Source of the DNA: Clostridia bacterium
Lineage (GTDB): Bacteria; Bacillota; Clostridia; UBA1381; UBA9506
Length of the DNA: 64,000 bases
Direction of reading: 5' to 3'
Assembly: GCA_017416855.1 (NCBI GenBank)
Contig: JAFQAZ010000030.1
Span: 1 to 64,000 of the forward strand
Shown here: positions 23,765 through 55,855 of the stretch, in pieces
Layout of the letters: every line of letters begins with the position of its first letter
Position numbering within the stretch: the stretch's first letter is position 1
Notes under the pieces: model-generated
Told to the model about the DNA's origin: nothing
Database searches by the model: none
What the model saw: the letters and a program-made list of their open reading frames with translations, nothing else
Translations under genes and position numbers: made by a program

Positions 23765-23817
23765 GTGACTTTTCATAAAAATAGTCTCTTTTAATTATTA
23801 TGTAGTCATGTTAGTAT
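23765..23817 (+). promoter_or_regulatory. Island promoter A: GTGAC-type tandem sites plus -10
   Basis: Half-site GTGACTT at 23765, second half-site GTCTCTT at 23784 (19 bp apart) and -10 TAGTAT at 23812 (28 bp further). The same spacing recurs at 26217, 31881 and 50888. It lies before the sensor-regulator gene, implying autoregulation. Confidence 0.72.
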
Positions 23818-23851
23818 TATTATAGGAGATTGTATAATTAGAGGGAGAAGT

Positions 23852-26119
23852 ATGCGTAAAATAAAAAATGAATTCCGGTATTTGTTTTCGTATAAATATA
23901 ATAGCATATATGTCCGCACATTGTTGACATTTGTACTCATTCTTTTGGTTGTTATATTTGCAATTGAAGGTGTTGTTTTTAGTCGTTCCTCAAGTATCAT
24001 TAGTGATAAAGTAAAAAATACAAATCAGCAAAATCTTAGACATATAAAACAGGGAATCGATTTTTCAATGGAAAAAATTGAAAAAATATCATATAGCATG
24101 GTCAATGATTCCCATCTTCAAAAAGAATATGACGCTTTATCCACAGATGAGCGTTTTTATATGATGCAGCATTTCTTTTCGCAGTTTTTCTTTGAAGATT
24201 ACATTGAATCTATTTATATTTATTATGAGGATAGTCAAAAAGTTATCACAACGGATGATGGTATTATAGATGTTCATTTGTTAGAGAATTTAGATTGGCT
24301 TTTATTTTACAATGATAAAAGACCTTTAGGTTATAGGACTGAAGTTTTTACAAGTAAATCTAATGATGACTGTATTACGTTTATGCGTGGATTTCCTTAC
24401 GGTGCAATGAATGAGTTGGGTACAGTCATTATAAACATAAACAAGGATAGATTTTTTAATAGTTTAGATAATGGTGATGATCAAAATGAGGAAATATTTG
24501 TATTAAATGATAAGGGCGAGTTACTCTATGGAAATAATGCATCATATGAAAATTTTAAAACAAATGATGATTTTACAAAAGGTTTAGAACAAAAGAAGAA
24601 CCATGTGTCAATTAAAATCGGCGGAGAAAAAACACAGGTGGCACTTGCTTATTCGGATGCGAGAAACTGGATATACATAAAAGCACAAGATGTAAGTTTG
24701 TTAAACAAAGAAATTGAGGAGAATTTTAAGTACATCAATTTAATTACAGTTATCAGTTTGTTGCTTGGCATTGTTTTGTCGTTTATACGTATGAACAAGT
24801 TATACAGACCCATTATGGATTTGATTGAAATAGCTGAAAAAAATCAGGATGCAATGGATGAAAATAAAGAGAGAAATATCCGGAATGAAATTGAATTATT
24901 GAAGCATTTGCTTGAAAAAATTATTATCAGCCGGGAAGATTTAAAAAATTTTTATGTAAAAAGCCAAAATGCGGTGTTGCAGAAATCTTTGTTGGATTTA
25001 TGTTATGGTGATGTTGATAATGAAGAAAGTATACTTCAATATTTGAAGGATGCAGATTTTCCAGTGGCAGGGCGTAATTTTGTTGCTATGGTTATTCAGT
25101 TTGAAAAGGATAATGACAGTTTAACATCTTCTATTAAAAGAGATATTATATCGGATAATACGTCCATTCATTATGATCTTATTATTACTTGTATGCAACA
25201 GGATAAAATCGTTTGTCTTGTGAGTCTTAAAAGTGATTTTGACAGTAAAATTTATGAAATAGCGGCCGAAATCAAAAATGTCATTAAATATGAGTTTGAT
25301 GCTGAATGCTCTATAGGGATTGGTAATGCCTATCAGGGCTTAATGCAATTTCAACTCTCTTTTAATGAGGCATTAGATGCACTCAAATATAAAGGTTTTT
25401 TAGAAAACAATTCTATTATTCATATTAACAGCTTTATAGGAAAAAGTTACGATAACAAGTATTATTATTCCATATCAAAAGAAGAAGAACTAATTGATGC
25501 AATTAAACAGATTGATAAAATAAGCGCTTTGAAAATTATAGATGAAGTTTATAAAAGTATTCTTCAATCGACCAATGAAATCAAAATGGTGTCCTTGTTG
25601 CTTTGGCAGCTGACAAATGGTATTGTTCGTTGTATTACCTCTATGGGGTTTTTATACACTGATATTATGGGAACAACATTCTACCAGGATATTACGGAAT
25701 ATAATAACATTGATAGTCCAGATGTGATGCTTGAGTTTGTTAAGAATAAAGCAGCTATAGTTATTGACCATTTAAACGAAAAAAGGAATTATCATAATGA
25801 AAATGTAATCAAAAAAATAAAGGATTATATTGAGGAACACTTGGATGAAGATTTGTCATTGGAAATATTTGCATCAATGACAATGCTGAGCGCTACTTAT
25901 ATTTCTAGCATATTCAAAGCTATATCAGGAGAAGGGTTGCGTGATTATATTATTCGTGTGAGAATGGAAAAAGCAAAAGAATTGCTGAGCAACAGTGATA
26001 AAAATATAGAGTTGATTTCAAAATGTGTAGGCTATGAAAATGTTCGAAGTTTCACCAGAACATTTAAATCCTTCTGTGGATTAACACCAGGGGAATACCG
26101 AAAAAATCCGCGTATATAA
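23852..26119 (+). CDS. Membrane sensor AraC-family regulator (YesN-like)
   Basis: 755 residues. A first membrane helix lies near residues 24-46 (LLTFVLILLVVIFAIEGVVF), an extracytoplasmic sensor region of about 245 residues follows, and a second helix is at about 292-312. The cytoplasmic linker is coiled and charged. The C-terminal 100 residues are a double AraC HTH (LEIFASMTMLSATYISSIFK, then SFCGLTPGEYRKNP). Proteins of this build sense extracellular oligosaccharide and activate adjacent transport and hydrolase genes. Its own promoter carries the shared GTGAC-type sites, so it is the better candidate to bind all four. Confidence 0.88.
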   Translation: MRKIKNEFRYLFSYKYNSIYVRTLLTFVLILLVVIFAIEGVVFSRSSSIISDKVKNTNQQNLRHIKQGIDFSMEKIEKISYSMVNDSHLQKEYDALSTDERFYMMQHFFSQFFFEDYIESIYIYYEDSQKVITTDDGIIDVHLLENLDWLLFYNDKRPLGYRTEVFTSKSNDDCITFMRGFPYGAMNELGTVIININKDRFFNSLDNGDDQNEEIFVLNDKGELLYGNNASYENFKTNDDFTKGLEQKKNHVSIKIGGEKTQVALAYSDARNWIYIKAQDVSLLNKEIEENFKYINLITVISLLLGIVLSFIRMNKLYRPIMDLIEIAEKNQDAMDENKERNIRNEIELLKHLLEKIIISREDLKNFYVKSQNAVLQKSLLDLCYGDVDNEESILQYLKDADFPVAGRNFVAMVIQFEKDNDSLTSSIKRDIISDNTSIHYDLIITCMQQDKIVCLVSLKSDFDSKIYEIAAEIKNVIKYEFDAECSIGIGNAYQGLMQFQLSFNEALDALKYKGFLENNSIIHINSFIGKSYDNKYYYSISKEEELIDAIKQIDKISALKIIDEVYKSILQSTNEIKMVSLLLWQLTNGIVRCITSMGFLYTDIMGTTFYQDITEYNNIDSPDVMLEFVKNKAAIVIDHLNEKRNYHNENVIKKIKDYIEEHLDEDLSLEIFASMTMLSATYISSIFKAISGEGLRDYIIRVRMEKAKELLSNSDKNIELISKCVGYENVRSFTRTFKSFCGLTPGEYRKNPRI

Positions 26120-26141
26120 TTTTATCTTTAAAAAGTCAGAC

Positions 26142-26199
26142 AATACTTACCACATACAAGAATTTGACGGAAATGATTGTATGGGTAAGTATTTTTTTT
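26142..26199 (+). terminator. Terminator after the sensor regulator
   Basis: AATACTTACC and GGTAAGTATT, extended by CATACAA/TTGTATG across a single bulge, form a long stem followed by eight T. Confidence 0.85.
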
Positions 26200-26216
26200 G
26201 TCTGTGTTTAAAAAAG

Positions 26217-26269
26217 GTGACTTAATATAAAAAATGTCGCTTTATCGAAAGCGAAGTATTTGTTATTAT
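26217..26269 (+). promoter_or_regulatory. Island promoter B: GTGAC-type tandem sites plus -10
   Basis: GTGACTT at 26217, GTCGCTT at 26236 and TATTAT at 26264, with the same 19 and 28 bp spacings as the other three. It drives the amidohydrolase and the first giant beta-helix protein. Confidence 0.75.
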
Positions 26270-26304
26270 TAATATGAGAAATTATATAAAGGAAGATGAT
26301 TCTT

Positions 26305-27102
26305 ATGAAAATTATTGCAAACCATGCACATTTGTTTCAACCTGAAGTAAGAGAAGTTGGAACTATGCAGGCATTAGAAAGTCTTATGGAAGAGTGTCAT
26401 ATAGATCAGGCAGTTTGTTTTGCGCCCTTTACGGCTAACTATAAAGATACAGGTATCAACCAAAACCGGTGGTTGTATGAACAGATAAAAAATAAAGACA
26501 AATTTTTCGGTTTTGGAACCATTGATTTTTCTAAAGATAATTTAAAAGAACAGACAGAAGAAATTTATCAGTTAGGGTTAAACGGCATTAAAATGCATCC
26601 GGCTTTTCAAAAATTTAAGGTGGATGGAGACAGAGCTTGTCAGGTTTATGAAGTTGCAGAGAAGTACGGATTGCCGATTTCGTTCCATACTGGTGTTCAT
26701 TGGTACAGAATTTCCCATTACAATACGCTATTATACGATGAAGTAGCTTATCGTTTTCCGGAACTGAAAATCTGTATGGAACACGTTGGCGGGTATTCTT
26801 TCTTTAATGAGGCACTTGCGGTTATGTGTAATAATCCTGGAAGAATATATGCAGGACTAACCAGCGTTTTTACAAAAGATTATAATATAATCTGGTATCT
26901 TGGAAAGGAAAAAGTAAAAGATTTACTTTGGCTTACGGGTGTAGAACAATCTGTTTTTGGATTGGATTTTCCGTATAATGATGCCCAAAAAACAAAAGTT
27001 TCGATTAAGGAACTGAATGACTGTATAGATGAAATGCAGTTGGGAGAAGAGGCGAAAGAAAAAGTATTTGGTGGGAATTTATTATCTATGATTAAGAGAT
27101 AA
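26305..27102 (+). CDS. Amidohydrolase-family TIM-barrel protein
   Basis: 265 residues from ATG 26305, behind AAAGGAAG; the ATG at 26296 is too close to it. The first strand carries NHAHLF, giving the metal-binding HxH pair. Later strands show IKMHPAFQKF, FHTGVHW, MEHVGGYSF and FGLDFPYND, where His and the final Asp fit the amidohydrolase_2 metal centre. It is cytoplasmic, with no signal. Members act as hydrolases, decarboxylases or lactonases; in a sugar island a lactonase or deacylase is plausible. It is co-transcribed with the 1,577-residue beta-helix protein 39 bp downstream. Confidence 0.8.
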   Translation: MKIIANHAHLFQPEVREVGTMQALESLMEECHIDQAVCFAPFTANYKDTGINQNRWLYEQIKNKDKFFGFGTIDFSKDNLKEQTEEIYQLGLNGIKMHPAFQKFKVDGDRACQVYEVAEKYGLPISFHTGVHWYRISHYNTLLYDEVAYRFPELKICMEHVGGYSFFNEALAVMCNNPGRIYAGLTSVFTKDYNIIWYLGKEKVKDLLWLTGVEQSVFGLDFPYNDAQKTKVSIKELNDCIDEMQLGEEAKEKVFGGNLLSMIKR

Positions 27103-27141
27103 TTTTTTGAAAAAAGGAGTTTTTAAAGGAGTATGCTAAAC

Positions 27142-30100
27142 ATGAAAAAGAGCTTGATAAGCGTTTTAATGATAGCGATTGTTTGTTTTGCTAATGCTGG
27201 ATTACCGGTTTTTTCGATGGAATTGCCACAATTGATGATGGCGCAAAGCGAAAGTGGTATTATAAGTGGGGCAAAGAAGGTTGTAGCAAATGAAAAATAT
27301 GTTTTTTTGGCGAGTACTAACGAAATATTTATATACAATAAAAATGATATAAAAACGCCGATTACAACAATCTGCAGATATATTTCTTCAAATTCTGATG
27401 TTAAAATGCCTGTTGAAAATATAGTATTAAAAGATGAAAAGCTGATTGTTAATTTCACGCTTGCATCAGGGGGTAACGGTCAACCGGCTATTAATATTTA
27501 TAATGTGAACGAGATTGAAGATGGTGAGAATATGGATTTGCTCATTACAGGGTGGGTTGCACCTGGTGCAGGAACTTCTGTAGTGGCATATGAAAACTAC
27601 TTGATTGCGAAAATACGCAGTAATAGTACTTTGCGTACAGATATTTATGAATTGAGTGAATTTATACAGCAGGCCAGACCACAGCCAATGGTTATACGAG
27701 AAGGTTTTGCACCACGATATGTTTATGCAAGCGGAGGATATTTGTTTGCAAGAGAAGCTGAATCAGATGCGGTAAACATTTACAAAATTTCTGATTTAGC
27801 AGATGCTACAAAAGAAACAAAAGTGTTATGTAATTTAAGCATAGATAGTGCTTTGCCGGTAAATGCTGTGTGTGCGGATGAACAATATGTCTTTTTATCA
27901 ACGGATAGTGCAGAAAACCTTAGGGCAAATAAAATTTTCGTGTATGATATTTCGACTATAGAGTCATTAAACCCATCGGCACCTTTAGTTCAACAATATA
28001 ATGCAAATGGTAGGGTAACCTCTCTTACGTTGAATGGTAATGTATTGCTTATAAGTGCTCAGGATGAAAATACAGTTAAGATACTGGATGTAAGTGATGT
28101 TAATGATATTCAGGTATTAACCACTCTGGCCCCTGAAGGAAGCGATGGAAGAGGATTTCAATTTTGCATTGAAGATGAGATTTTATATATTTGTAATTAT
28201 GGAGCGGGGCTTTCTGCCTACCAACTTCCGCAAAGAACACTAATGCTAAGTGCCATTAAAGGAGAAATGCCACTTGGTGCATTATCCCCCGGTAGCTTTC
28301 AGACTAAATTATCATATGAGAATTTCTTTGATATTGAGGGAGCAAAGGGAAAAGTTATTATTGCTAAGTATAAGGGAAATCAACTTGATGAACTGACATC
28401 TCAAGATGTTCAGATTATGCCGGGCGAAGGCATTGGAGAAATAAATATTGAATCAATTAGTGTTGAGAATGAGGATAATCGCACGATTCAAATGTTTTTT
28501 TTCGATGGTTTTGACAATTTGATACCCTTGACGGAAAAATTAAACTTAGAGAGAGCAGATTTTACCCATAGGAATGAATTTTATGTTGATGCCCAGACAG
28601 GTAGTGATCATAATAATGGTGAAAAAGAGACACCATTTAAAACCATACATCGTGCCAGAGAGGAAGTAAGACGGATAAACCGCAGAATGACAACAGATAT
28701 CTATGTGTATCTAAAGAATGGTACATATTATTTAGAGGATACACTTTGTTTCGAAGAAAAAGATAGTGGCTTTAATGGTTTTAATGTAATATATAAAGCC
28801 GCAGAAGGAGCCCAACCTGTCATTAGCGGAGGGACTCCCATAGAAGGATGGACCTTATTTGATGAGGAGAAGAATATTTATAAGGCATCAGCAAAGGGAG
28901 CAGATAACAGGCATCTTTATGTAGATGGAAAACGGGCAGTGCGTGCCAGAAGTGAAGGAAATGTTGGAAATTTTGTGAGTGATGGCGGTGTGGAGGGTTT
29001 CACCTGTTCCAATACTGAGTTTTTACAGTATAAAAATTTTGCAGATGTTGAATTTGTGTTTTTGCGTGGCTGGGTATCAAGACGTGCTCATCCTTTGAAC
29101 GTAGAAAGTGTAGATGCGGATACAGTCAAAGTGAATATACGAAATTGGGATAGGGTTAATGATGTAGATTATAAAAAACCTGAAAGCGTGTATTATTATG
29201 AAAATGCCTATGAGCTTTTGGATGAAGAAGGAGAATTTTATATTGATAAGCAGGCGGATACAGTTTACTATAAACCGATAACAGGAACCGATATACATTC
29301 TTCTGTTATCGTCGCTCCTAAGCTTGAGACAGTTATTTCAGTGTGTGGTGAGAGTGTTGTAAAACCAGCCCACAATATTGTTTTTTCGGGCATTACCTTT
29401 AAGGATTCCACTTGGTTATCTCCCAATCATCATGATTTTTTGGATACTCAAAATTTATACCCGGAACAACCGGAAGCGGCTGTGTTCTTAAAAAATGCCA
29501 ATCATATAAAAATTGAAAAATGTACAATTAAAAATTGTGGGGGAGATGGCTTAGGTGCTACCCGAACGGTACAGGATTGTACATTTTTAGGAAATAATAT
29601 TTATGATATATCGGCACGAGGGATACACCTTGGGGACTGGAATGGGCCTGAAGATTCACGGATTCAAACTGAAATTGCCAGTGGCTTTGTGATAGAAAAT
29701 AATTACATTCATGCGATTGGAGAGGAATATTATTCTGCTCCAGCGTTGTCAGGCGTTTTTATTGCCGATACCCAAATTCGGCACAATGAAATATTTGATG
29801 TACCCTACAGTGGAATGCATATTGGCTGGGGATGGGATTCCTATGAAAAAACCAGTGTGAAGAATTTGGATATTTCGTACAATTATATTCACGATTATAT
29901 GCATACCTGTGCAGATGGTGGTGCGGTCTATTTTCTTGGTGCAACGGGTGCATCTGCGGAGAACATGAATGAGGTATATCAAAATCACTTTAAAAATGCC
30001 GGAAGCGGAACAGAAGGGGTTATGTACTGCGATAGTGGCTCTAATTACTATCGTTTGTCAGAGAATGTAATAGACAACCATGAATCTGTTTGGAATGGGT

Positions 30101-31875
30101 ATTACGGTTTGGGTAGTTCTTATAATGAGTTTGTTGATAATTATACCACCTCAGAAATGTTTAATCTGGTTTCTGAAAACTCAGCCACACCTGTTGGTAC
30201 GAAGGTGTATGCTAATGGTAACTGGCCACAGGCAGCAAGAAATATCATCAACGATGCAGGTCTTGAGGACGAATATAAATATTTGTCGGCCGGTGATGGT
30301 GATGCGTTTGTACTTAAAGCCGTTCATGAGATGACTGGAGTATCAGGTGTTATGTGTGCAAATGATACGCTGGCATTTATCAAAAAGAGCGAAACGCAAG
30401 TCTCTGTCTATGATGTGACCGATATAGAAGTTCTTGCACAGACGGGAAAGATAGAATATGCGGCAAACGGTGAAACATATACCGTTGAAGCAATGGAAAT
30501 TAAGGAAAACCATCTGTTTGTTCATTTTTCTAAAGATTCAAATCATGTTGTCGTATTATATGATGTATCCAATGCAAAAAATGGAGTAATACAGAAAATA
30601 TCATCCCTTAATGTGCCGGAAAATATGACAATGCTTGTAAATAACAATTATCTTGTTATTGCCAAGGCAGGAAATTATTTAGATTTATATAATATCTCTG
30701 CTCTGGTGGAAAACGGCTTTTTGTCAGCAACATCTAATCCTTTTGAGTTTGCAAAAGAGATGTATATAGATGATGAGTATCTCTATGCCGTCAGAGACAA
30801 TATCGTAGATATTTATGTATTTGATGGTACAGAAATGGAAAGAAAGGGTGCGTGCCCTGTTACAGAGGCAGGTATTCAGTCAGTTATGCGGCAGGAAGAC
30901 AGACTGTATGTTACTACAAAATTACCAATGGGTAACAAAGGTAATCTGTATGTATATGACATGTCAAGCCTTTCACCTTCTGATACTGATGGTAGCGGAA
31001 TGCGGCTAATCAAAGAGTATGCACCGATTGAATATGAGGAAGTTATAGACGAACTGGAAAAGAGCAGAGTTGTAACCAGTGTACAGAATGAAAAATATAT
31101 TTTCGAAATTAATGCTGCCAATAAAACAAAAATTGATGTAAAGGATGCAGTAAGCGGCGATACAATCACAACGATTACTCATGCTATGAGTAATACGGAT
31201 TTAAATTACGTATTTGGTAGCATGTGCCTGCAGGGGGACAAATTGGTTGTAACCTGTAAGAGAAACGGCGGTAATGGTAATCCTGAAGTTGCGTTATATG
31301 ATGTCGGCAATGTTGTTGTGGGAGCGACTTTAGAACCTATAGATAACATCGGTATATATAATGCTGATAATGGGATTGTATTTAAAAATGACACCTATGT
31401 TTTTTTAAATGATATAACTTTAGGAACGCTGTATGTCTGCAGTTTAGATAATGAGGCCGACCCCTTTAAAAGAAGTGCAAAACTATATACGAAGTCTAAT
31501 AACATGTTTGCAGATAATCATTATTTATACGTGCATAACGAAACTGAAAATGTTGTGGAAATATACTCTTTAGAAGGATTACCCCATTCATTGAGTTCAT
31601 TACATCGCGTGGGAATTATTCCTCATAGCGTAGAGGACATTAACAATGTTTTATCTGGTTCTTATTATCCTGCAAGGTCGATATGTAAATCAGGAGATTT
31701 TATACTGACGGCAAATTCTATGTTGGTGAATATATCTGTAACCAATGGAGAAGAAGATATGCAGTTAAAGCTTTATGAGATTGGAAACCATGCGGTAGGA
31801 CTCTTTGCACATCAAAATTATGTCTATGCCATAGAAAAAGGAAAAAGGCTTTTGATTTATGAAAGAGTGAAATGA
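27142..31875 (+). CDS. Giant secreted beta-helix / beta-propeller protein
   Basis: 1,577 residues from ATG 27142 (AAAGGAG 10 bases upstream; ATG 27133 is too close). A signal peptide covers about 1-28. Residues 35-375 are a repeated beta-propeller-like (LVIVD-type) domain. Residues 478-1050 form a right-handed parallel beta-helix beginning EFYVDAQTGSDHNNG with TPFKTIHRAREEVR, the opening common to GH120-like and polysaccharide-lyase-like helices; N-rich turns such as IKIEKCTIKNCGGDGLG follow. Residues 1065-1577 are a second propeller. There is no SLH or LPXTG anchor, so it is likely free or held by partners. The beta-helix is homologous to that at 42098-46123. The likely role is binding or cleaving a polysaccharide; catalytic class is not certain. 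Confidence 0.82.
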   Translation: MKKSLISVLMIAIVCFANAGLPVFSMELPQLMMAQSESGIISGAKKVVANEKYVFLASTNEIFIYNKNDIKTPITTICRYISSNSDVKMPVENIVLKDEKLIVNFTLASGGNGQPAINIYNVNEIEDGENMDLLITGWVAPGAGTSVVAYENYLIAKIRSNSTLRTDIYELSEFIQQARPQPMVIREGFAPRYVYASGGYLFAREAESDAVNIYKISDLADATKETKVLCNLSIDSALPVNAVCADEQYVFLSTDSAENLRANKIFVYDISTIESLNPSAPLVQQYNANGRVTSLTLNGNVLLISAQDENTVKILDVSDVNDIQVLTTLAPEGSDGRGFQFCIEDEILYICNYGAGLSAYQLPQRTLMLSAIKGEMPLGALSPGSFQTKLSYENFFDIEGAKGKVIIAKYKGNQLDELTSQDVQIMPGEGIGEINIESISVENEDNRTIQMFFFDGFDNLIPLTEKLNLERADFTHRNEFYVDAQTGSDHNNGEKETPFKTIHRAREEVRRINRRMTTDIYVYLKNGTYYLEDTLCFEEKDSGFNGFNVIYKAAEGAQPVISGGTPIEGWTLFDEEKNIYKASAKGADNRHLYVDGKRAVRARSEGNVGNFVSDGGVEGFTCSNTEFLQYKNFADVEFVFLRGWVSRRAHPLNVESVDADTVKVNIRNWDRVNDVDYKKPESVYYYENAYELLDEEGEFYIDKQADTVYYKPITGTDIHSSVIVAPKLETVISVCGESVVKPAHNIVFSGITFKDSTWLSPNHHDFLDTQNLYPEQPEAAVFLKNANHIKIEKCTIKNCGGDGLGATRTVQDCTFLGNNIYDISARGIHLGDWNGPEDSRIQTEIASGFVIENNYIHAIGEEYYSAPALSGVFIADTQIRHNEIFDVPYSGMHIGWGWDSYEKTSVKNLDISYNYIHDYMHTCADGGAVYFLGATGASAENMNEVYQNHFKNAGSGTEGVMYCDSGSNYYRLSENVIDNHESVWNGYYGLGSSYNEFVDNYTTSEMFNLVSENSATPVGTKVYANGNWPQAARNIINDAGLEDEYKYLSAGDGDAFVLKAVHEMTGVSGVMCANDTLAFIKKSETQVSVYDVTDIEVLAQTGKIEYAANGETYTVEAMEIKENHLFVHFSKDSNHVVVLYDVSNAKNGVIQKISSLNVPENMTMLVNNNYLVIAKAGNYLDLYNISALVENGFLSATSNPFEFAKEMYIDDEYLYAVRDNIVDIYVFDGTEMERKGACPVTEAGIQSVMRQEDRLYVTTKLPMGNKGNLYVYDMSSLSPSDTDGSGMRLIKEYAPIEYEEVIDELEKSRVVTSVQNEKYIFEINAANKTKIDVKDAVSGDTITTITHAMSNTDLNYVFGSMCLQGDKLVVTCKRNGGNGNPEVALYDVGNVVVGATLEPIDNIGIYNADNGIVFKNDTYVFLNDITLGTLYVCSLDNEADPFKRSAKLYTKSNNMFADNHYLYVHNETENVVEIYSLEGLPHSLSSLHRVGIIPHSVEDINNVLSGSYYPARSICKSGDFILTANSMLVNISVTNGEEDMQLKLYEIGNHAVGLFAHQNYVYAIEKGKRLLIYERVK

Positions 31876-31880
31876 AAAGT

Positions 31881-31933
31881 GTGACCATTTAAAAGAAATG
31901 TGAATTTACAAAATAATTATAGGGTTTTACAAT
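31881..31933 (+). promoter_or_regulatory. Island promoter D: GTGAC-type tandem sites plus -10
   Basis: GTGACC at 31881, GTGAATT at 31900 and TACAAT at 31928. Spacings are 19 and 28 bp, identical to the other three promoters, though the second half-site is more diverged. It drives the lipoprotein-permease operon and probably the surface-protein genes that follow. Confidence 0.62.
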
Positions 31934-31973
31934 TAAATTAAGTTAAATTAAATTTTTATATGGAGGGAACAGT

Positions 31974-33581
31974 ATGAAATTCAAAAAAACTTTAGCCATT
32001 ATTTTAACCATTGCGAGTTTGACAACGCTTTTGGCAGGCTGCGGCGATAAGAAAGAAACCGGAGGCAGTGCGTCCGGAGAAAAAATGACAATTTCCTGGT
32101 TAGGATATCCTTATGGAAATTGTGAAGAAGGCACAATACCGCAACAGCTTTTAGAAGAGAAATTTAATATTGAAATTAACCCCGTATTTTTAGATGAAGA
32201 AGCCTACGTTAATAAAAAACCTCTTTTGATGGCAAGTGGAGAAATTCCTGACATCATATATGAACTGGATCCGGGCAATTTGCAGGCAGATGTGCGTCAG
32301 GGCTTTTTGATGGAACTGCCTTATGAAACCATTAAAAAATATGCACCCTCTGTGGTGGGAATGATTAACGAAGAGATTCCTGAACTTTGGCTCTATTCTT
32401 ACTGTGATGGAAAGAATTATGGTGTGCCGAATTTGTATTACAGCGGTGAAAATATCCGTGTCGGCTTATGGCGCAAGGATTGGCTCGATAATGTTGGTAT
32501 AACCAAGATTCCGGAAACCATTGATGAAATGCATGATGCTTTCGTTAAGTTTGTTAACGAAGATCCTGATGGAAATGGTAAAAAAGATACATATGGTTTA
32601 AGTGGTGATTTAAAATCAAGTTATATCTCTTTCTGTGAAATTTTTGGCGCCTATGGTGTACTTCCTTTTGATTGGATGGAAAAAGACGGAAAAATTGTTT
32701 ATGGTGGTGTTCAGCCTGAAACCAAAGAGGTTTTAAGCCTTTTAGCAGACTGGTATAAAGAAGGTATTATTGATCCTGAATTTATTACAGATGCAACCAA
32801 TAAGAGCATTAGTACTAAATTTAAGAATGGTATTCTTGGTTATATCAATAATTACGGCGCGGATTATGGCAACTTGGATGCTACGCAGGAAGAGAAGTTT
32901 TTAGGCATTATGAAGAAACTGAATCCTGAAGCAGAACTTGCAGTTGCTCCTCTTCCTAAGGGTCCTGAAGGAAAACAGGGTTCCTTTGTGTGGGGCAAAG
33001 GTGGTCACATTATTGCCTTAGGTAAACAGGTTGCAGAACAGCCTGAAAAACAACAGAGAATTTTGGAAATGATGGAAGTTATGAAGAATGATCAGGATTT
33101 CTCTCTGCAGTTGGTACTGGGTACGGAAGGCGTTTCATGGGAGAAGAATACATCTGAAGAAGGCGGCATTAATTGGATTGCCCCTTATGATACTACAGCA
33201 CAACGTGCTAAATTACTTGGTTCCTTGGAATTAAATGGTACATCATTTTATAATATCATTCCCATTAACAAGGAAACCAGAAATGCATATACACCGAAAG
33301 CACAGCGTGAACATAACGAAAAATATTTAGATCCAAGTCTTGGTATGAAGGATGCGTTGTTAAAGCCTGATGTAGTGCCTGAATCAGAAAAATATTTAAA
33401 AGATTTACAGAATAAACAGCTATTGTTATTTGCAAAAATTATTAAGGGCGAAAAAAGTGTAGCAGATTACGCAGAATTTGAAAAAGAATGGAATGAATTA
33501 GGCGGTAAGATATTGGAGGAAAATGCAAACTCACTTTACGGAGAGTTGCAAAAAATTTACGAACAGGTAGGCGTTCAGTAA
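31974..33581 (+). CDS. Sugar ABC transporter substrate-binding lipoprotein (LplA type)
   Basis: 535 residues. A signal peptide ends in the lipobox TLLAGC (Cys at about 23). The mature chain is of the long LplA/YtcQ type used for oligosaccharides, with ISWLGYPYGN, DIIYELDPGN, DGKNYGVPNLYY and WRKDWLDNVGI. It sits outside the membrane and feeds the two permeases that follow. No ATPase gene is in the island; transporters of this group normally share an MsmX-like ATPase encoded elsewhere. It is the first gene after promoter D. Confidence 0.9.
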   Translation: MKFKKTLAIILTIASLTTLLAGCGDKKETGGSASGEKMTISWLGYPYGNCEEGTIPQQLLEEKFNIEINPVFLDEEAYVNKKPLLMASGEIPDIIYELDPGNLQADVRQGFLMELPYETIKKYAPSVVGMINEEIPELWLYSYCDGKNYGVPNLYYSGENIRVGLWRKDWLDNVGITKIPETIDEMHDAFVKFVNEDPDGNGKKDTYGLSGDLKSSYISFCEIFGAYGVLPFDWMEKDGKIVYGGVQPETKEVLSLLADWYKEGIIDPEFITDATNKSISTKFKNGILGYINNYGADYGNLDATQEEKFLGIMKKLNPEAELAVAPLPKGPEGKQGSFVWGKGGHIIALGKQVAEQPEKQQRILEMMEVMKNDQDFSLQLVLGTEGVSWEKNTSEEGGINWIAPYDTTAQRAKLLGSLELNGTSFYNIIPINKETRNAYTPKAQREHNEKYLDPSLGMKDALLKPDVVPESEKYLKDLQNKQLLLFAKIIKGEKSVADYAEFEKEWNELGGKILEENANSLYGELQKIYEQVGVQ

Positions 33582-33629
33582 AACAATCTTTCTCCGATTG
33601 TTGGATTTTGCTTTAGTTTGGAGGAAAAA

Positions 33630-34601: not shown

Positions 34602-34618
34602 AGGGGGGCAGAAGAAAA

Positions 34619-35494: not shown

Positions 35495-35540
35495 TTGTAA
35501 TATGAGTAAATCATAATGTTGTTTACAGGAGGATATGAAT

Positions 35541-39302: not shown

Positions 39303-39322
39303 TAACGAAAGGAGCAGAAAAG

Positions 39323-42073: not shown

Positions 42074-42097
42074 TACAGGATAGGAGCGAAGATTATA

Positions 42098-45000
42098 ATG
42101 AAGATTACGAATCGAATCGTTTCACTTCTTATGGTGGCTCTTTTCCTCCAAATATTATTTGTAGTACCTATAGGTGCGGAAAATCTCATAGGAAATGGAG
42201 ATTTTGATGTGAATATAGGGGACTGGAAAGAAAACGGAGCTGTTATAAGCAGAGAAACAGAAAATGCCTTTGGTGGTAGTGGTGCTTCGGCCAAGGTAGA
42301 ACTCACAGAACCCCGCGGATATGTTTATCAAACTATTACCTTGAAAAAGGGAACGGAATATTGGTTCTCAGCCTATGCCAAACTGGCAAAAGGAACCAAA
42401 ACTGTTCAGTTTATTGTTGACAGAAACAAGGGTAATGAGGTATTGCAGGTTGATTATGTTGCTGTTGGCACCCAGGTTACTACAGACTGGACTAAAATTA
42501 TGGGAAGATATACCTATAATGGTGAAAACGAAGAAGAGGCCAAGATATATTTAAGATTTGGCGATGGTTTAGAGAAACTGACCTATTATTTTGATAATTT
42601 TATTATGGATAGCGAGGCTCCCAAGGAAATGGTACATCCTCTGACAGATGATGCAGAGTATCGGGATGTGGCAAGAAATCATTGGGCAAGAAATTACATT
42701 TTGGCGATGGATAAAAAAGGCATTGTTCATGGTGTGGGGGAAAATACATTCTTGCCGGAGGGTAATGTTACCAGAGCAGAATTTTTGGCTATGCTGGTAA
42801 GAGCTTTGCAGCTTAAAAGTAAAAGCTATGACGGTGTATATCAGGATGTAAAAGCTGAAGATTGGTATGCAGGCATTATTCAAACGGCAGTTTCTGATGA
42901 ACTGATTGATGAAGCTATGACGGCGGATAATAACTTTTTACCGAATCAGCCTATTACCCGTGAAGAAATTGCCTCTTTAGTTGTAAAGGCGTATCAGTAT
43001 TTAGAACTGGAGGAACCCGGTTTAAAAGAAGGAAATCATTCCTATGATGATGTGAGTTCATGGGCAAAAGATTATGTTCGTTTTGCAGAAAGTGTTGGTT
43101 TAATCCGTGGTGACAGCGAGGGTATGCGACCCAAGGATAAAACAACGAGAGCGGAAGCAACAGCCATCATACAAAGACTGCTGGAAAAGCAAAAGCAAAC
43201 CATTTATTATGTTGATAGTGAAACCGGTGATGATAAGGCGAAAGGAACAGAGTTTGAGCCGTTAAAAACCATAGAAGGTGTCAAAGCGCTTCTTCGCACG
43301 GTAAACCGGAACATGAAGCATGATATTTATGTTTATCTTTGCAATGATACATATACGCTGACAGAAACTTTAACCTTTGATGCTAAAGATTCAGGAACCA
43401 ATGGTTATAACATCATCTATATGGGTGCCAAGGGTAAGATGCCCGTTATCAGCGGTGGCGTGCAGGTTACAGATTGGACTCTTTATGATGCAGAGAAAAA
43501 TATTTATAGTGCAAAGGCAAATGGATTAGATACACGTCAGCTTTATATTAATGGTAAAAGAGGCGTCAGAGCCAGAAGTGAGGGTGGTCTCACCAATGCT
43601 GTCACCGACAAAGGTGTTAGAGGTTTGATTTCTGACGACACCTTCTTAGCGGATTTTGAACATCCTGAAGATATGGAGATGGTGTTCCACGGCGACTGGA
43701 CCCATCCCAGAGTAGGTGTTAAAGAAATTCTGGTCACAGATGGCAAGGCAGACATTGTGTTAAGACAGCCTGCCTGGTATAAGGCTTCTAACAAAGGTGC
43801 AACTTCAGTGCGCTTGCCCTGGTGGTATGAAAATGCTTATGAGCTTTTAGACAGCGAAGGAGAATGGTTTTTAGATAAACGCACAGACACCTTTTATTAT
43901 AAACCTTATGCTGATGAAGATATGGAAACGGCTGATGTTATAGCACCGGTTTTAGAACAGCTTATGGTCATTGAAGGCAGAGTAATCAGCGAACCGGTTC
44001 ATAATATAAGCTTTAAAAATTTAAAATTTGAGCACACGGGCTGGCTTGGCCCTAACACGGATTACGGACATGTTGATACTCAATGTAACTATTGGAATTA
44101 CACAGAAGTAACGGATATTCCTGATGGTCAAGCTTTACTGTTCCCCGGTGCTATTGAGATTCAACGAGGGAATAATATTAACTTCGTGGAGTGCGAGTTT
44201 TCAAAAATGGGCATCGGAGGCTTGCAGTACATTCGCGGTATGCAGGATTGTGTTGTAGTGGGTAATCATTTTTATGATATATCCGGTACGGCAGTACAAA
44301 TCGGTCACCCCGATGATTGGGATGTGGAAAATATTAATCCCACAGATTCTCGAATGGTGATGCGTGGTTTTACGGTAGATAATAATTATATTCACGATAT
44401 AGCGGTTGAGTATTATTCTGCGGTTGGCATTGCCATAGGCTATGTTGCGGATTCTACTTTTAACCACAACGAAATTTATAACGTCCCCTATTCTGGCTTT
44501 CATATTGGATATGGCTGGGACAGAATTAAAACCTCTGCTACTAAAAACGTAAGGGTGCAGTATAATTATGTTCACGAGGTTATGACCAAGCTTTTAGACG
44601 GAGGAGCCATTTATACAATTGGTGGTACCGGTGGTTCTGAAGATAATTATAATCTGATTACGGATAATTATTTAAAGAATCAGCATGATGCTTCCATGGT
44701 GCTTTATTCCGACTCCGGTTCAAGCTACTGGTGGTGGGAGAAAAACGTTGTCAGCTTAGAAGATAGCCGTTGGCCGAGAGGCAGTCAGACATGGGCAAAT
44801 GTCTATGACACCAACCCCCGCTATAGGAATTTTACACCAGTCACAAAAATGTATGGTGACGGTGATGCCAACCGTGACAAGCTTATTATGGATACCCAAG
44901 TATATCCGGATGAAAACTGGCCGGATGAGGCAATGGAAGTTATCCGTAATTCCGGTGTAGAGGATAAATATAAATATTTAGTACCCATTAATTATGATTT

Positions 45001-46123
45001 CGATAAGATTACCACAACAGCTTCCTTCGATATGCAGATTGGCGATCAAGGAGAGATGAACCTTAAGGCCTTTACCGACAGAGGTATGCCTTATGACATA
45101 AGCGGAGCTGAAATCTCTTATGTTTCAGAAAATCCGGAGGTTGTCAGCGTGGATGCAGAGGGTCATGTTGTGGCACTATCACAGGGTATGACCAATATCA
45201 TCACCACTTTTGTGTTAGGCGATATTACCAGAACGAGAACCACCACCGTGAAGGTGCAGGATGAATTTGACAAAATTTATCCGGAGAAAGAACTGACAAA
45301 CTATATGCTCGTTGGTGCATCTAAAACGGTGAAAATTGTTGGTGAAACCACCTTTGGCACTATGTTAGAGCTTGATTCTGTTGAGTTTACCTCTTCAAAT
45401 CCCTCGGTGCTGAGCGTTGTGAATAATGAAAAGATTATTGCAATGGAATACGGTGATGCAGAACTGACCGTTAAAGGAAAATACAACGGCGAGGAGAGGG
45501 AATTTAAGCACAATATCAGTGTTATTACTTATGGTGACGACAGTGCACTTGGTTATCCTGAATATCCTTTTAATGAGCTGAAAAATGGTACGGATGGTTG
45601 GTTTATTGCTGAGGGTGCATTGCTCCATAACATCACCAATGGCGTGAAGACAGAAACGCCCAAAGGTCAGGTATTATATACCGCTAAGAAATTTGGCGAT
45701 GAATTGCTTACTTTTGATATGAAGGTTAATTCAAAGGGTGGATGGTACGGCATTGTATTCAGGTCTCAGAACACCACAGGTTACGATGCGCCTGACCAGG
45801 CTTGTTATATGATAACCTTCGGCGATGGCGGTACCATAGATTTGACCCGATTTAATAACGGCAAACGAACTGGTATTTTTGAATCTTCGGTCAGCGATAA
45901 TAACATTGGTGGTATCGGACGGCAAAACGACTTTATTAAAATGGGTCAAACCCATAAAGTTCAGTTGGGTGCTGTTAATGAGGATGGCGGCGTCAGAATT
46001 ATTGTCAATGTTGACGGTGTGAATGTTTTTAACTATTTAGATACCACGGAAGGTCGTATAGAGAACCCGGGATATTTTGGTGTTTATAACAGAACTGGTA
46101 CCATTGATTTTACAGCGGAGTAA
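42098..46123 (+). CDS. Giant surface enzyme: CBM, three SLH, beta-helix, Big_2, C-terminal lectin-like domain
   Basis: 1,341 residues. Signal peptide about 1-28. Residues 29-175 look like a CBM4/9-type carbohydrate-binding module (NLIGNGDFDVNIGDW). Three SLH repeats cover 187-360 (VTRAEF, ITREEI, TTRAEA). A right-handed beta-helix spans 367-965, homologous to that at 27142-31875 (shared YVD-TG, PVISGG, RQLYINGKRGVRARSEGG). Two bacterial Ig-like (Big_2) units follow (about 970-1140), then a concanavalin-like beta-sandwich to the end. This is a wall-bound glycan-degrading or debranching enzyme; the beta-helix is the likely catalytic part but its class is not certain. Confidence 0.85.
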   Translation: MKITNRIVSLLMVALFLQILFVVPIGAENLIGNGDFDVNIGDWKENGAVISRETENAFGGSGASAKVELTEPRGYVYQTITLKKGTEYWFSAYAKLAKGTKTVQFIVDRNKGNEVLQVDYVAVGTQVTTDWTKIMGRYTYNGENEEEAKIYLRFGDGLEKLTYYFDNFIMDSEAPKEMVHPLTDDAEYRDVARNHWARNYILAMDKKGIVHGVGENTFLPEGNVTRAEFLAMLVRALQLKSKSYDGVYQDVKAEDWYAGIIQTAVSDELIDEAMTADNNFLPNQPITREEIASLVVKAYQYLELEEPGLKEGNHSYDDVSSWAKDYVRFAESVGLIRGDSEGMRPKDKTTRAEATAIIQRLLEKQKQTIYYVDSETGDDKAKGTEFEPLKTIEGVKALLRTVNRNMKHDIYVYLCNDTYTLTETLTFDAKDSGTNGYNIIYMGAKGKMPVISGGVQVTDWTLYDAEKNIYSAKANGLDTRQLYINGKRGVRARSEGGLTNAVTDKGVRGLISDDTFLADFEHPEDMEMVFHGDWTHPRVGVKEILVTDGKADIVLRQPAWYKASNKGATSVRLPWWYENAYELLDSEGEWFLDKRTDTFYYKPYADEDMETADVIAPVLEQLMVIEGRVISEPVHNISFKNLKFEHTGWLGPNTDYGHVDTQCNYWNYTEVTDIPDGQALLFPGAIEIQRGNNINFVECEFSKMGIGGLQYIRGMQDCVVVGNHFYDISGTAVQIGHPDDWDVENINPTDSRMVMRGFTVDNNYIHDIAVEYYSAVGIAIGYVADSTFNHNEIYNVPYSGFHIGYGWDRIKTSATKNVRVQYNYVHEVMTKLLDGGAIYTIGGTGGSEDNYNLITDNYLKNQHDASMVLYSDSGSSYWWWEKNVVSLEDSRWPRGSQTWANVYDTNPRYRNFTPVTKMYGDGDANRDKLIMDTQVYPDENWPDEAMEVIRNSGVEDKYKYLVPINYDFDKITTTASFDMQIGDQGEMNLKAFTDRGMPYDISGAEISYVSENPEVVSVDAEGHVVALSQGMTNIITTFVLGDITRTRTTTVKVQDEFDKIYPEKELTNYMLVGASKTVKIVGETTFGTMLELDSVEFTSSNPSVLSVVNNEKIIAMEYGDAELTVKGKYNGEEREFKHNISVITYGDDSALGYPEYPFNELKNGTDGWFIAEGALLHNITNGVKTETPKGQVLYTAKKFGDELLTFDMKVNSKGGWYGIVFRSQNTTGYDAPDQACYMITFGDGGTIDLTRFNNGKRTGIFESSVSDNNIGGIGRQNDFIKMGQTHKVQLGAVNEDGGVRIIVNVDGVNVFNYLDTTEGRIENPGYFGVYNRTGTIDFTAE

Positions 46124-46160
46124 TTATTTTATAATAAAAAATTATGTAGGAGGAAGAAAA

Positions 46161-47873
46161 ATGTTTAAAAGAATGATAGGTATTTTTCTAATTTCAATCA
46201 TGTTAATGGTGAGCGCAATGCCGGTTGTTATGGCGGCAGAAAATCCAACCCTGACATTAGAACAGTTGGTTGCACCTACCAATGAAGGGGGTACTGCGAG
46301 AGCTTTTTGCAAAAATGACAACTATATGTTTGTCAGCTACGGCACTTGGGTTGAGGTTTATAGTTATGACAAGGATGACCCAACGAAACAGCCTGAGTAT
46401 CTGACCAAAGTAACATATACCAGTAAGCGTGATAGCTTTGAAATTCCCATGATTGCTTATGATATAGAGACTGTTGGCAATGATTATCTGGCTATTGCTT
46501 TTTGCAGACCGGATGGAAAAGTTGACTACTACGGCTATTCCAGATTGGTTATATGTGATGTGAGAAGTATACAAAAAGATCAGGTTCTCACTTGTTCTGC
46601 TCTTGTAAAACTCAGAGACTTTACTGTTGGTTGTTATTTGAATGTTGTTGGTAATATGCTGTATATGTTAGAATGGCAGGATAGAACGGATAACGTTGAT
46701 GATTCAGCCTATCTCTGGAGTTTTGATGTGCGAGAAGCAGTTATTATTGCAAATAAAAATGGACAGAACTATAATTGGGAAATCGACAGAGATAAACAAA
46801 ATACAGCTCTTGACTACAATGTGATTACAGATTATGGGTATGGTAGGATTACTTATGGTACGGCTGCTGAAGGTGGAGAAGGTATAGCAGCCTATATGGA
46901 TGGCAATTACCTTTATTTTGTGCAGAAAGCTCGACTTTCGGTATATGATGTTACGGATAGAAAAAATGTGATCAAAAAGGGCTTTGTAGCGTTAGACGGA
47001 ACGAATAAATATAGCTTTGCCGATGTAGCAGCGAAGGATGATTATGTGTTTGTTGGTTTGGGCGATGCAAGTAAGGGTATTTTCGTGTTTGATGTCAGTC
47101 AGACAAAGGCACAAGGTACTTCCTCAGGCATGTATAGCGATACCATTGATACAGAAACTACCTTGGTGGCACCGACTTATATTGAAGATATATACGTTCC
47201 CTATGTGGGAGCTGCTAAGCTGTGTAACAAGGTTATGGTTAATGGTGACTACTTGTATGTTTCGTGGCCACAGATTCATCGGTTGATTGTGTATGATATT
47301 TCTGATATGTCTCAGTTTAACTTTACTCATGAAAACCTGTTGGACGGCATTGTTACAGAACTTGATCTCAAGGTGTTATTGGATGATAAACACGCAAATA
47401 GTGTTAGCGATGCAAATACGCAAGGTGCAGAAAAAGTTTTCAATGGCGGCGGTTTCCGTGATATGCTGTTAGATGGCGATGAGTTATATTTCACCGATAC
47501 TGCCTATGGCATCAGACGGGCAAAACTCTCTCCCTCTGAACAGCTGGGTGCTCTCTCTGTTACGGATGGAACAACAGCTTTGGAAGTTTTGGCAGACGGT
47601 AACTTGAAGAGTGAAATTACCATTACAAATTCCTCCTCAAAACCATATACCGGCGTGTTGATTCTTGCCTATTATAAGAATGGTGCACTGGAGGATGTTG
47701 AAACAACACCGATTAACATTCCTGCCGGCGAAATGGATTATAAAGTAACAACGGAAGAAGCTGTGGTAGTTTCCGGTGCAGTTAAGGGTGACTATGTGAA
47801 GGCTATGCTTTGGTCTGATGTTTCAAGTTCACTGATTCCTCTTGTTCAGGGTGTCACCATAGAAAAAAACTAA
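46161..47873 (+). CDS. Secreted beta-propeller protein without anchor, 570 aa
   Basis: Starts at ATG 46161, 7 bases after AGGAGG; an in-frame extension to 46077 would overlap the previous gene. A signal peptide (about 1-27) is followed by a propeller domain that is a clear paralogue of the N-terminal half of the protein at 35541, sharing VEVYSYDKDD, NDYLAIAFCRPD and GDYLYVSWP. The last 100 residues form a beta-sandwich. It has no SLH or cohesin part. It may be a soluble partner, a glycan-binding protein or a product of duplication followed by loss of the anchor. Confidence 0.8.
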   Translation: MFKRMIGIFLISIMLMVSAMPVVMAAENPTLTLEQLVAPTNEGGTARAFCKNDNYMFVSYGTWVEVYSYDKDDPTKQPEYLTKVTYTSKRDSFEIPMIAYDIETVGNDYLAIAFCRPDGKVDYYGYSRLVICDVRSIQKDQVLTCSALVKLRDFTVGCYLNVVGNMLYMLEWQDRTDNVDDSAYLWSFDVREAVIIANKNGQNYNWEIDRDKQNTALDYNVITDYGYGRITYGTAAEGGEGIAAYMDGNYLYFVQKARLSVYDVTDRKNVIKKGFVALDGTNKYSFADVAAKDDYVFVGLGDASKGIFVFDVSQTKAQGTSSGMYSDTIDTETTLVAPTYIEDIYVPYVGAAKLCNKVMVNGDYLYVSWPQIHRLIVYDISDMSQFNFTHENLLDGIVTELDLKVLLDDKHANSVSDANTQGAEKVFNGGGFRDMLLDGDELYFTDTAYGIRRAKLSPSEQLGALSVTDGTTALEVLADGNLKSEITITNSSSKPYTGVLILAYYKNGALEDVETTPINIPAGEMDYKVTTEEAVVVSGAVKGDYVKAMLWSDVSSSLIPLVQGVTIEKN

Positions 47874-47896
47874 GTTCTGACTAAGGAGTGAAAAAA

Positions 47897-48895
47897 ATGC
47901 TTTGGATACTGCATGTTATGCTGGGCGCCCAGGAGTGGGGTTGGGAGGATGAAGACCCAAGAACCATACAGTTTGATGATGAAGCCTGGGATATTATCAT
48001 AAAAGAATGCCATGAAAACGGCATTAATGCCATTTTGCTTGATGTAGGTGAAGGTGTTCAATATCCAAGTCACCCCGAGTTGGCACGGCCCGGTTCATGG
48101 CCTGTCGAAAGAGTACACAAAGAAGTCAAAAGACTGAAAGAATTAGGCATTGCGTTAATTCCCTTTGTGAACTTTTCGGCTACCCACCATCACTGGCTGG
48201 GTGATTATGCAAAAATGATGTCCACAGAGCCTTACTATAAGGTTTGTCGGGAACTAATTCAAGACACCTATGAGATGTTTGGCAAACCGCCCTACATCAT
48301 GCTGGGTATGGATGAAGAGGATAATACTTTCTGTTTGCGTAATATGAAAGGACTTGTATCCATGCGTCGTGGTAAGCTGTTCTGGCACGATTTGCAGTTT
48401 TTATGCGATTGTGTACGTGAAACAGGAGCATCACCCTGGATTGCTGCTGACCATTTAATTAAGTTTCCTGAAGAGTTCAGAAAAAATGTCAGCACAGAAG
48501 ATATTACCCTGATTCCCTGGCACTATATGGCTGTTAAAAAGGAACATTATTCGCGCATTGATTCCCTGCCTATGTATAAAGAGTTTTATAGTCAAGAACC
48601 CCTTTGCTATATGAACTTAACCTATGTTGAGGATGATGCCTACTTTGTGAATTTTATGAAGCAGGTTAAACCGGGTGCAGAATATGGGTATAATATGATT
48701 CCTATGGTTTCAACTTATAATAAGTGTGAATATTGTACCGATGACCATATGGACTATTTCTGGAATAACATACCAAGAGAACGGTTTAAGGGTTTTTCAA
48801 CAGCGCCCTGGGTATATACCACCATGGAATATGTAGATGAAATTGTGCGTAGCATTCATTTATTAAGAGAAGCACGGGAGAAATATTGTAAGTAG
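47897..48895 (+). CDS. Putative TIM-barrel glycoside hydrolase-like protein
   Basis: 332 residues from ATG 47897, behind TAAGGAG; an in-frame GTG at 47888 is less likely. No signal peptide, so probably cytoplasmic. The pattern of strands (GINAILLDVGEG, GIALIPFVNFSATHHHWLG, PYIMLGMDEED, SPWIAADHLI, DITLIPWHYM) is that of a (beta/alpha)8 barrel with conserved acidic residues at strand ends. I do not recognise the exact family. MDEED near residue 140 and the His-rich THHHW could be active-site parts. It could hydrolyse an imported oligosaccharide. Confidence 0.6.
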   Translation: MLWILHVMLGAQEWGWEDEDPRTIQFDDEAWDIIIKECHENGINAILLDVGEGVQYPSHPELARPGSWPVERVHKEVKRLKELGIALIPFVNFSATHHHWLGDYAKMMSTEPYYKVCRELIQDTYEMFGKPPYIMLGMDEEDNTFCLRNMKGLVSMRRGKLFWHDLQFLCDCVRETGASPWIAADHLIKFPEEFRKNVSTEDITLIPWHYMAVKKEHYSRIDSLPMYKEFYSQEPLCYMNLTYVEDDAYFVNFMKQVKPGAEYGYNMIPMVSTYNKCEYCTDDHMDYFWNNIPRERFKGFSTAPWVYTTMEYVDEIVRSIHLLREAREKYCK

Positions 48896-48925
48896 ATATT
48901 TAAAAGTTCATAGTTTCACTACATA

Positions 48926-48964
48926 GAGTGTTGTGGGGAGGTGCTTTTTCTGCGCATCCCCACA
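48926..48964 (+). other. Hairpin in the gap before the acyltransferase-like gene
   Basis: GTGGGGA and TCCCCAC, extended by GTGC/GCGC, form a stem. There is no T-run, so it is not a clear terminator. It may protect or attenuate the following transcript. Confidence 0.4.
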
Positions 48965-48988
48965 TTGCTTTAATAAGGAGAAAGAGTC

Positions 48989-49882: not shown

Positions 49883-49932
49883 TGTATATGACAAGACAGT
49901 TAAGGTTTTGCTTGTGTTGTAAATGGTAAAGA

Positions 49933-49962
49933 GAAGGCAGTAGCAAAGTTGCTACTGCCTTC
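49933..49962. terminator. Bidirectional terminator
   Basis: GAAGGCAGTAGCAA and TTGCTACTGCCTTC form a perfect 14-bp stem with a 2-base spacer (an effective tetraloop). It separates two convergent genes. Confidence 0.88.
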
Positions 49963-49976
49963 TTTAAGGGTTCGTT

Positions 49977-50774
49977 TCAATATTGTTTTAGTCTTTCAAA
50001 AGCCATTGCGGCTTCGATTTCGTTTATTTCTTCACAAATTACGGGAATATCCAGTTTATATTCTTTCATTTTATTGAAAATTAATTTATAATTCAATAAT
50101 CCCTTGCCGGGGTGGGCAGATTTTATTTCGTTATTTTCCACAATAAAGTCTTTTGCATGAATAACAGCAATTTTATTCGCCAATAGGTCAAATATAGTGT
50201 TAATCATTTCGTCTTGTTTGTTGTAATTCTCTACTGTAATTAAATTACAAGGGTCGAAAATAACTTTAATATGATCAGAGTGAATGTCCTGCATTAAACG
50301 TGCCATTATTTCCGGTGTGTTAATCACAAAGCAATGAACGCCTTCAATACCAATGGTCACATTGTATTTTTCTGCTTCAGCTACAAGGATTTTTATGGTA
50401 GCTAAAAGATGCTGATATGCTTCTTCAGAATGAGTTTTACCTTCTATGTAAGTCCCGGTTTCTGTTCCAATGACAAGTGGCTTTAAAATGCTTGCATATT
50501 GGATTTTTTCTAAAAATTTGTTTATATAGGTGCTTAAAAGAATTTCATCCGGTTCCGAGGGGTTAATATAACTGCCTAACACGGCAATTTTTGTCCCTGC
50601 TAACTCTTCTTTCAGCGAAATTGCATATTCTTCTGAAAACTGACCGTATTCATAATTTTCAATACTTTTTTCCAAAACAAGCTGAAGAAAATCAATTCCG
50701 ACTTCTTTGCAACGTAGGCTAATGTTTTTTAAACCTTGAGCCTGTACATCATGTCCGCGGATGCCTTTTTTCAT
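49977..50774 (-). CDS. Sugar phosphate isomerase/epimerase-like protein (xylose isomerase-type barrel)
   Basis: 265 residues. Strands of an AP-endonuclease-2/xylose isomerase-like TIM barrel are visible: IAVLGSYINP, IGIEGVHCF (Glu near 150), VIFDPCNLI (Asp), AVIHAKDFIV (His) and VICEEIN. These Glu, Asp and His residues form the usual divalent metal site. Cytoplasmic. Proteins of this group isomerise or epimerise sugars or inositols, suiting the last steps of the island's pathway. It is read opposite to the 50985 operon, and both start from the same intergenic region. Confidence 0.83.
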   Translation of the reverse strand: MKKGIRGHDVQAQGLKNISLRCKEVGIDFLQLVLEKSIENYEYGQFSEEYAISLKEELAGTKIAVLGSYINPSEPDEILLSTYINKFLEKIQYASILKPLVIGTETGTYIEGKTHSEEAYQHLLATIKILVAEAEKYNVTIGIEGVHCFVINTPEIMARLMQDIHSDHIKVIFDPCNLITVENYNKQDEMINTIFDLLANKIAVIHAKDFIVENNEIKSAHPGKGLLNYKLIFNKMKEYKLDIPVICEEINEIEAAMAFERLKQY

Positions 50775-50887
50775 TATCCTTTACCTCTTTGTATAATTTT
50801 TATATACTTATTATACTACAAATCATATATTAAGGCAATTTGTTATTTTCCTATAAAACTCTTTATATTAAAGATGATTTAAAAAAT

Positions 50888-50940
50888 GTGACTTACTGTA
50901 AAAACTGTCCCTTTAATGCGACTTAAGTCTCCGTTATAAT
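50888..50940 (+). promoter_or_regulatory. Island promoter C: GTGAC-type tandem sites plus -10
   Basis: GTGACTT at 50888, GTCCCTT at 50907 and a consensus TATAAT at 50935. Spacings are 19 and 28 bp as at the other three promoters. The -35 region (TTTAAT) is poor, as expected for an activator-dependent promoter. It drives the hydrolase operon beginning at 50985. Confidence 0.8.
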
Positions 50941-50984
50941 ATGTATAGTTTTAAAATTCTATTTCCAGGAAAAGGGGTCACCTC

Positions 50985-52655: not shown

Positions 52656-52703
52656 GTAAAACAGAAAGATAAATTTATTATAAAAAGGAAAGGAATGTTA
52701 AGG

Positions 52704-53765: not shown

Positions 53766-53790
53766 ACGCATTGATGAAAGGTGATAGAAA

Positions 53791-54636: not shown

Positions 54637-54695
54637 AGAAAAGGAGACAATGAGAATAATCACTAAACGTAAAATTGATTGTAAGGAGAATTCCC

Positions 54696-55838: not shown

Positions 55839-55855
55839 TATGGGAGCGAAGAAAA

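Follow-up and report, generated by a model that had tools for sequence, protein, structure and literature searches.

A candidate regulon of a YesS/RhgR-like membrane AraC protein, confined to one glycan-use island of a Clostridia bacterium

RhgR, which corresponds to YesS, is a membrane AraC protein of the Cache type, and MtlR of Pseudomonas fluorescens is soluble. Regulators of the RhgR/YesS type, which serve rhamnogalacturonan use in Bacillales, preside over a local regulon of ABC importer and glycan-hydrolase genes. Control of this kind, by an AraC protein with a local regulon and a direct-repeat motif, is typical, and the motifs reported for the sugar-responsive AraC groups are direct repeats with a period of 21 bp (PMC3870299). 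In published cases, AraC-type sugar activators occupy direct repeats next to the -35 element; one of them is MtlR, an AraC/XylS-type protein whose target PmtlE, the one promoter studied, carries two repeat blocks upstream of the -35 (-72/-58 and -50/-36, a 22-bp period) and an A-tract by the first repeat (PMC4514859). In the Gram-positive polysaccharide utilisation loci (gpPULs), for example the mixed-linkage glucan locus of Blautia producta, an AraC-type gene likewise lies beside genes for an ABC importer and glycoside hydrolases, and the part of that description drawn on here gives no operator motif (PMC10318527).

The island considered here lies in a 64,000-nucleotide stretch of DNA from a Clostridia bacterium (the window, meaning the whole stretch analysed) and represents a known kind of circuit, small and self-contained sugar sensing, in the glycan-use island of a gut-type bacterium. 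It resembles PmtlE in its paired blocks upstream of the -35 and in its A-tract, but its period is 19 bp and the arrangement recurs at four promoters; unlike the gpPULs as far as described in that part of the source, it has one motif common to these four promoters. The likeness to YesS is one of architecture. The period differs from the 21 bp of AraC-type rhamnose regulators, and the gene content is also unlike that of the RhgR/YesS systems, with three SLH surface proteins, beta-helix proteins and a NagA-like deacetylase. The sequence is best read as a regulon private to the island, in which a transmembrane AraC activator resembling YesS/RhgR also activates its own gene. Its unusual detail is the 19-bp period, and the analysis had a useful by-product, a candidate operator of parallel design that is private to the locus of a paralogue in the same genome.

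Four sites with one spacing

An earlier note on this DNA had proposed an internal AraC-type regulon from four promoters in which a GTGAC-type half-site is followed after 19 bp by a second half-site and after a further 28 bp by a -10 box. The sites are indeed present at 23765, 26217, 31881 and 50888, with the exact 19/28 spacing in all four and with the -10 boxes TAGTAT, TATTAT, TACAAT and TATAAT, respectively. The distance from the end of the -10 box to the ATG is 34, 35, 40 and 44 bp, where 26305, an ATG with a properly spaced ribosome-binding site, is taken as the second gene start. Stacked without gaps, the four sites have in common GTGAC, an A-rich centre, GT at +19 and the -10 hexamer at +47. 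They occupy the promoters of four transcription units, all inside 27 kb: the sensor-regulator, an amidohydrolase/beta-helix pair, an importer with surface proteins, and a hydrolase operon. The features are as follows, mismatches being counted against the 22-base consensus GTGACTTnnnnTAAAAAnTGTCnCTTTA.

22834..23670, + strand: 278-aa soluble AraC protein with a weak PocR-like sensor, the alternative binder; no operator site of its own
23765..23792, + strand: candidate operator site 1, GTGACTTTTCATAAAAATAGTCTCTTTT, upstream of the sensor-regulator gene; 2 mismatches
23812..23817, + strand: -10 box TAGTAT with extended TGT
23852..26119, + strand: 755-aa transmembrane sensor-regulator, the proposed binder, behind site 1
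26217..26244, + strand: candidate operator site 2, GTGACTTAATATAAAAAATGTCGCTTTA, upstream of the amidohydrolase and beta-helix genes; 0 mismatches
26264..26269, + strand: -10 box TATTAT with extended TGT
26305..31875, + strand: predicted target operon; amidohydrolase and 1580-aa beta-helix/GH141-like protein
31881..31908, + strand: weak candidate operator site 3, GTGACCATTTAAAAGAAATGTGAATTTA, upstream of the solute-binding protein and permease genes; exact template spacing
31905..31933, + strand: promoter of site 3, TTTACA-17-TACAAT, with a near-consensus -35
31974..48895, + strand: predicted target operon, its extent judged from short gaps; solute-binding protein, two permeases, three SLH-domain surface proteins and others
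50888..50915, + strand: candidate operator site 4, GTGACTTACTGTAAAAACTGTCCCTTTA, in the divergent region between the hydrolase operon at 50985 and the minus-strand gene at 50774; 0 mismatches
50935..50940, + strand: -10 box TATAAT of site 4
50985..57220, + strand: predicted target operon; 556-aa protein, GH105-like unsaturated uronyl hydrolase, metallo-beta-lactamase-fold protein, NagA-like deacetylase and 454-aa protein

The other island gene starts with upstream gaps (22834, 48989 and 57361) carry no such site. Site 4 lies in the divergent intergenic region 50775-50984, across from the minus-strand sugar isomerase-like gene at 49977-50774, and may have an effect on this gene as well.

Repeat symmetry, rarity and the strength of single sites

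The claim that the sites are tandem direct repeats abutting the -35 held in part. The second half-site reaches the -35 position, 17 bp from the -10 box, in all four cases. Tandem symmetry itself is modestly supported: in the common register, a lag of 19 bp is best at every word length, and a clear excess over column-shuffled controls is seen for 7-mers only (1/100), which counts as modest support because several word lengths were tried. This lag is not the usual 21 bp of the AraC family, a period that is common among such regulators but not universal; at the paralogous locus C2, described below, the lag is 18 bp. The same elements can be read as an inverted repeat, GNGAC-N14-GTCNC, bound by some other regulator, possibly a repressor, with the AraC proteins using other sequences. 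Imperfect dyads can indeed be drawn for the three strong sites, two of which also give a score on the reverse strand, but inverted repeats never exceeded the column-shuffled controls, whatever the word length, on which comparison this layout was rejected, and 31881 does not fit the pattern. Moreover, the position over the -35, the adjoining AraC gene and the parallel at a paralogous locus favour an activator over a repressor. This alternative is highly improbable.

The literal template GTGAC-N14-GTS-N25-TANNNT occurs five times in the window, where shuffling predicts 0.02 occurrences by chance, and the 2.37-Mb genome likewise contains five matches, all on the same contig and on the + strand. 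The fifth match (47245-47297) falls inside the coding sequence of 46077-47873 and is regarded as a chance occurrence. Genome-wide rarity of the template is no argument in itself, since a reversed control pattern also gives five matches genome-wide; the significant part is the clustering and the promoter positions, with four of the five matches lying 34-44 bp before an ATG. Allowing up to 3 mismatches, the 22-base consensus finds only 23765, 26217 and 50888 in the genome, each with 0-2 mismatches, and a profile of the four sites recovers only these four, at 33-40 bits against 14 bits for the next best match, the training sites being included. Because the template and the consensus were derived from the sites themselves, there is some circularity in these counts, of which the leave-one-out and paralogue tests are free. 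Genome-wide statements rest on pattern and profile searches, and the position-matrix comparisons span 106 kb and about 207 kb.

With no further match to the consensus in 2.37 Mb and none to the four-site profile above 14 bits, the restriction of the sites to the island, as the earlier note had it, was borne out, and the sites are confined to the regulator's own locus, as in an island-private regulon. A motif scan of 20 genomes of the family gave a match only in the organism's own genome. A relaxed consensus run over GTDB species genomes gave one match in a Bacteroidales genome, which is read as chance because its surroundings, where the genes are unannotated, show nothing like a comparable locus. 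Weak profile matches in C13, C31 and C27 lay in or at coding sequence, one in C24 was intergenic with a low score, and a weak match in C1 between an AraC regulator and a solute-binding gene was dropped because it has no GTGAC.

The single sites differ in strength. A position matrix built from the sites performs well for 23765, 26217 and 50888, each of which, when left out of the matrix, outranks every non-site position in 106 kb, but not for 31881, whose score of 8.3 is exceeded at about 10 non-site positions; nor did a three-site profile (23765, 26217, 50888) recover 31881 in the genome. The observation that all four promoters have no good -35 is uncontradicted for the three strong sites, two of which (23765 and 26217) have an extended -10 (TGT), but fails for 31881, where TTTACA-17-TACAAT agrees with the consensus at 10 of 12 positions. 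Given this promoter, the agreement of 31881 with the other sites is partly promoter sequence (the TTTA and TA..AT columns), and an activator may be unnecessary here. It is possible, if doubtful, that only three sites are functional and that 31881 is a chance match, the importer/surface operon depending on its own sigma-A promoter. The failure in leave-one-out and the near-consensus promoter speak for this view; against it, 31881 fits the exact 53-bp template, as one of five matches in the genome, and is the sole such match before its operon. The three-site alternative is compatible with the best explanation for 23765, 26217 and 50888, and under that explanation 31881 is probably a weak candidate operator.

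The regulator and its paralogous loci

The 755-aa protein has two hydrophobic membrane segments (about 16-50 and 291-317), between which dCache_1 is matched at 50-274 (E 1.5e-8, at 34.9 bits below the Pfam gathering score of 45 bits), followed by a GGDEF_2-like domain and an AraC helix-turn-helix. Its C-terminal domain matches HTH_18 (2.4e-17) and HTH_AraC (2.7e-10), both over the cut-offs, and AraC, MarA and YesN domains in the PDB. The protein thus belongs to the AraC/XylS family, with two helix-turn-helix motifs, and has the transmembrane Cache-AraC architecture of YesS. No close relative of this regulator was found in the GTDB species genomes or in 95 genomes of the order, which precluded phylogenetic footprinting through orthologues.

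Within the same genome, the nearest paralogue is encoded at C10:10943-13219, with 25% identity overall and 43% in the helix-turn-helix (HTH) domain. One site precedes the gene of the paralogue itself and another that of a solute-binding protein; this pair, GTGMCATATTGGAAAANNTGARCACTAT, occurs nowhere else in the genome. Compared with each other, the C10 upstream regions yield this pair at 25/30 identical positions, where 200 shuffles reach at most 24. The pair shares the core of the window sites, with the -10 box at offset 48 in both of its members in comparison to 47 in the window. When a 21-bp matrix made from the four window sites alone is applied to 413,646 positions, the pair takes ranks 7 and 11, and both C10 sites were already among the top non-site matches of the first matrix scan (106 kb), before the pair comparison.

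These observations bear on which island regulator reads the sites. The 278-aa AraC protein is encoded 181 bp upstream of the sensor-regulator gene, with site 1 between both genes, and it could be the protein that activates the island operons together with the gene of the sensor-regulator, which would then act elsewhere or as a co-regulator. This is quite unlikely, as its own gene has no such site and C10 has the same operator design with a regulator of the 755-aa type; no second AraC was seen among those C10 neighbours that were domain-scanned, which are not all of them. The recognition helix and HTH identity also favour the 755-aa protein: in the second recognition helix, N-RSF-R-FK matches between it and the C10 paralogue, in comparison to DTSYFICLFKKKF in the 278-aa protein, and its HTH identity to the C10 paralogue is 43% against 31%. 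The C10 sites, matrix ranks, offset and recognition helix, taken together, make the 755-aa protein the likely binder, and the four sites are thus probably operators of the island's own membrane Cache/AraC sensor-regulator.

At a further locus, C2, a Cache/AraC regulator precedes two solute-binding-protein genes with a common promoter block, in which TGTTTG is repeated at lag 18, the second GTTTG lies 28 bp from TATAAT, and the -35 is TTGAAA. The block has two copies in the genome (in C2:45000-64000, upstream of 6492 and 8545, minus strand), which are near-identical with a diverged -35/-10 spacer, and its offset to the -10 agrees with that of the window sites. The regulator's own promoter has no such block. 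This locus is weaker evidence because the two solute-binding-protein genes may be recent duplicates, the regulator promoter is without the block and the half-sites were picked by eye. Both C10 and C2 resemble the island in that their AraC regulator is large and has two membrane segments as well as a GGDEF_2-like match, in the presence of a solute-binding protein, and in a private candidate operator at a fixed offset to the -10; they differ in operator sequence and in having two sites each as opposed to four. The two loci were picked from about 20 regions examined, and, besides them, nothing convincing came from comparing upstream regions for common motifs, either around regulator genes of related genomes or in four further regions of this genome. 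It is speculative and on balance unlikely that they mark a membrane Cache/AraC subclass with a period of 18-19 bp and a nearly fixed 27-29 bp offset, departing from the 21-bp rule, with a diverged, non-crossing copy at each glycan locus.

Target genes and the proposed circuit

The best named PDB relatives of the island solute-binding protein are AlgQ1/AlgQ2, and top-ranked entries given without a name are presumably glycosaminoglycan-type binders. Together with the GH105-like hydrolase, this AlgQ/glycosaminoglycan-type protein indicates uronic-acid glycans, and the target is likely a glycan containing uronic acid. One SLH surface protein (35535-39305) has a sub-threshold cohesin-like match (E 6.5e-5). 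The 556-aa protein (50985-52655) has no sequence match in Pfam, NCBIfam or the PDB; a single genome of the same family encodes three relatives (29-37%), of which one (G001:C4:90537-92108) lies near a Cache/AraC-type regulator gene at 93140-95440. The glycan genes are flanked on one side by genes for a DUF6017/HTH_36 protein, a Schlafen/AlbA_2 protein and a DDE transposase (17227-20660) and on the other by one for a large serine recombinase (59132-60715), which suggests an acquired segment.

The earlier proposal of an internal AraC-type regulon is supported by the common operator, the site at the regulator's own gene, the absence of sites elsewhere and the C10 parallel. Within it we infer binding, activation as opposed to repression, and the ligand as follows. 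An extracellular glycan fragment would bind the Cache domain of the 755-aa protein. A dimer of this protein would then bind both half-sites through its cytoplasmic AraC domains; the half-site GTGAC... lies at about -59, and TGTC/TGTG... at about -40. As the downstream half-site overlaps a poor -35, the bound protein would recruit RNA polymerase to the -10. The four promoters, of the regulator, the amidohydrolase/beta-helix pair, the importer with surface proteins and the uronyl-hydrolase operon, would respond jointly, with site 1 before the regulator's own gene providing positive feedback. At 31881, a degenerate operator would sit on a promoter with a near-consensus -35, so that the importer and surface proteins are probably expressed basally, letting the cell sense the glycan.

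Read in this way, the sites would delimit the island genes that answer to one glycan signal, and an operator is proposed for a membrane sensor-regulator family for which few described binding sites were found. Furthermore, the parallel loci suggest that one genome is sometimes enough to recognise such operators, if the promoter of the regulator gene is set beside that of the importer next to it.
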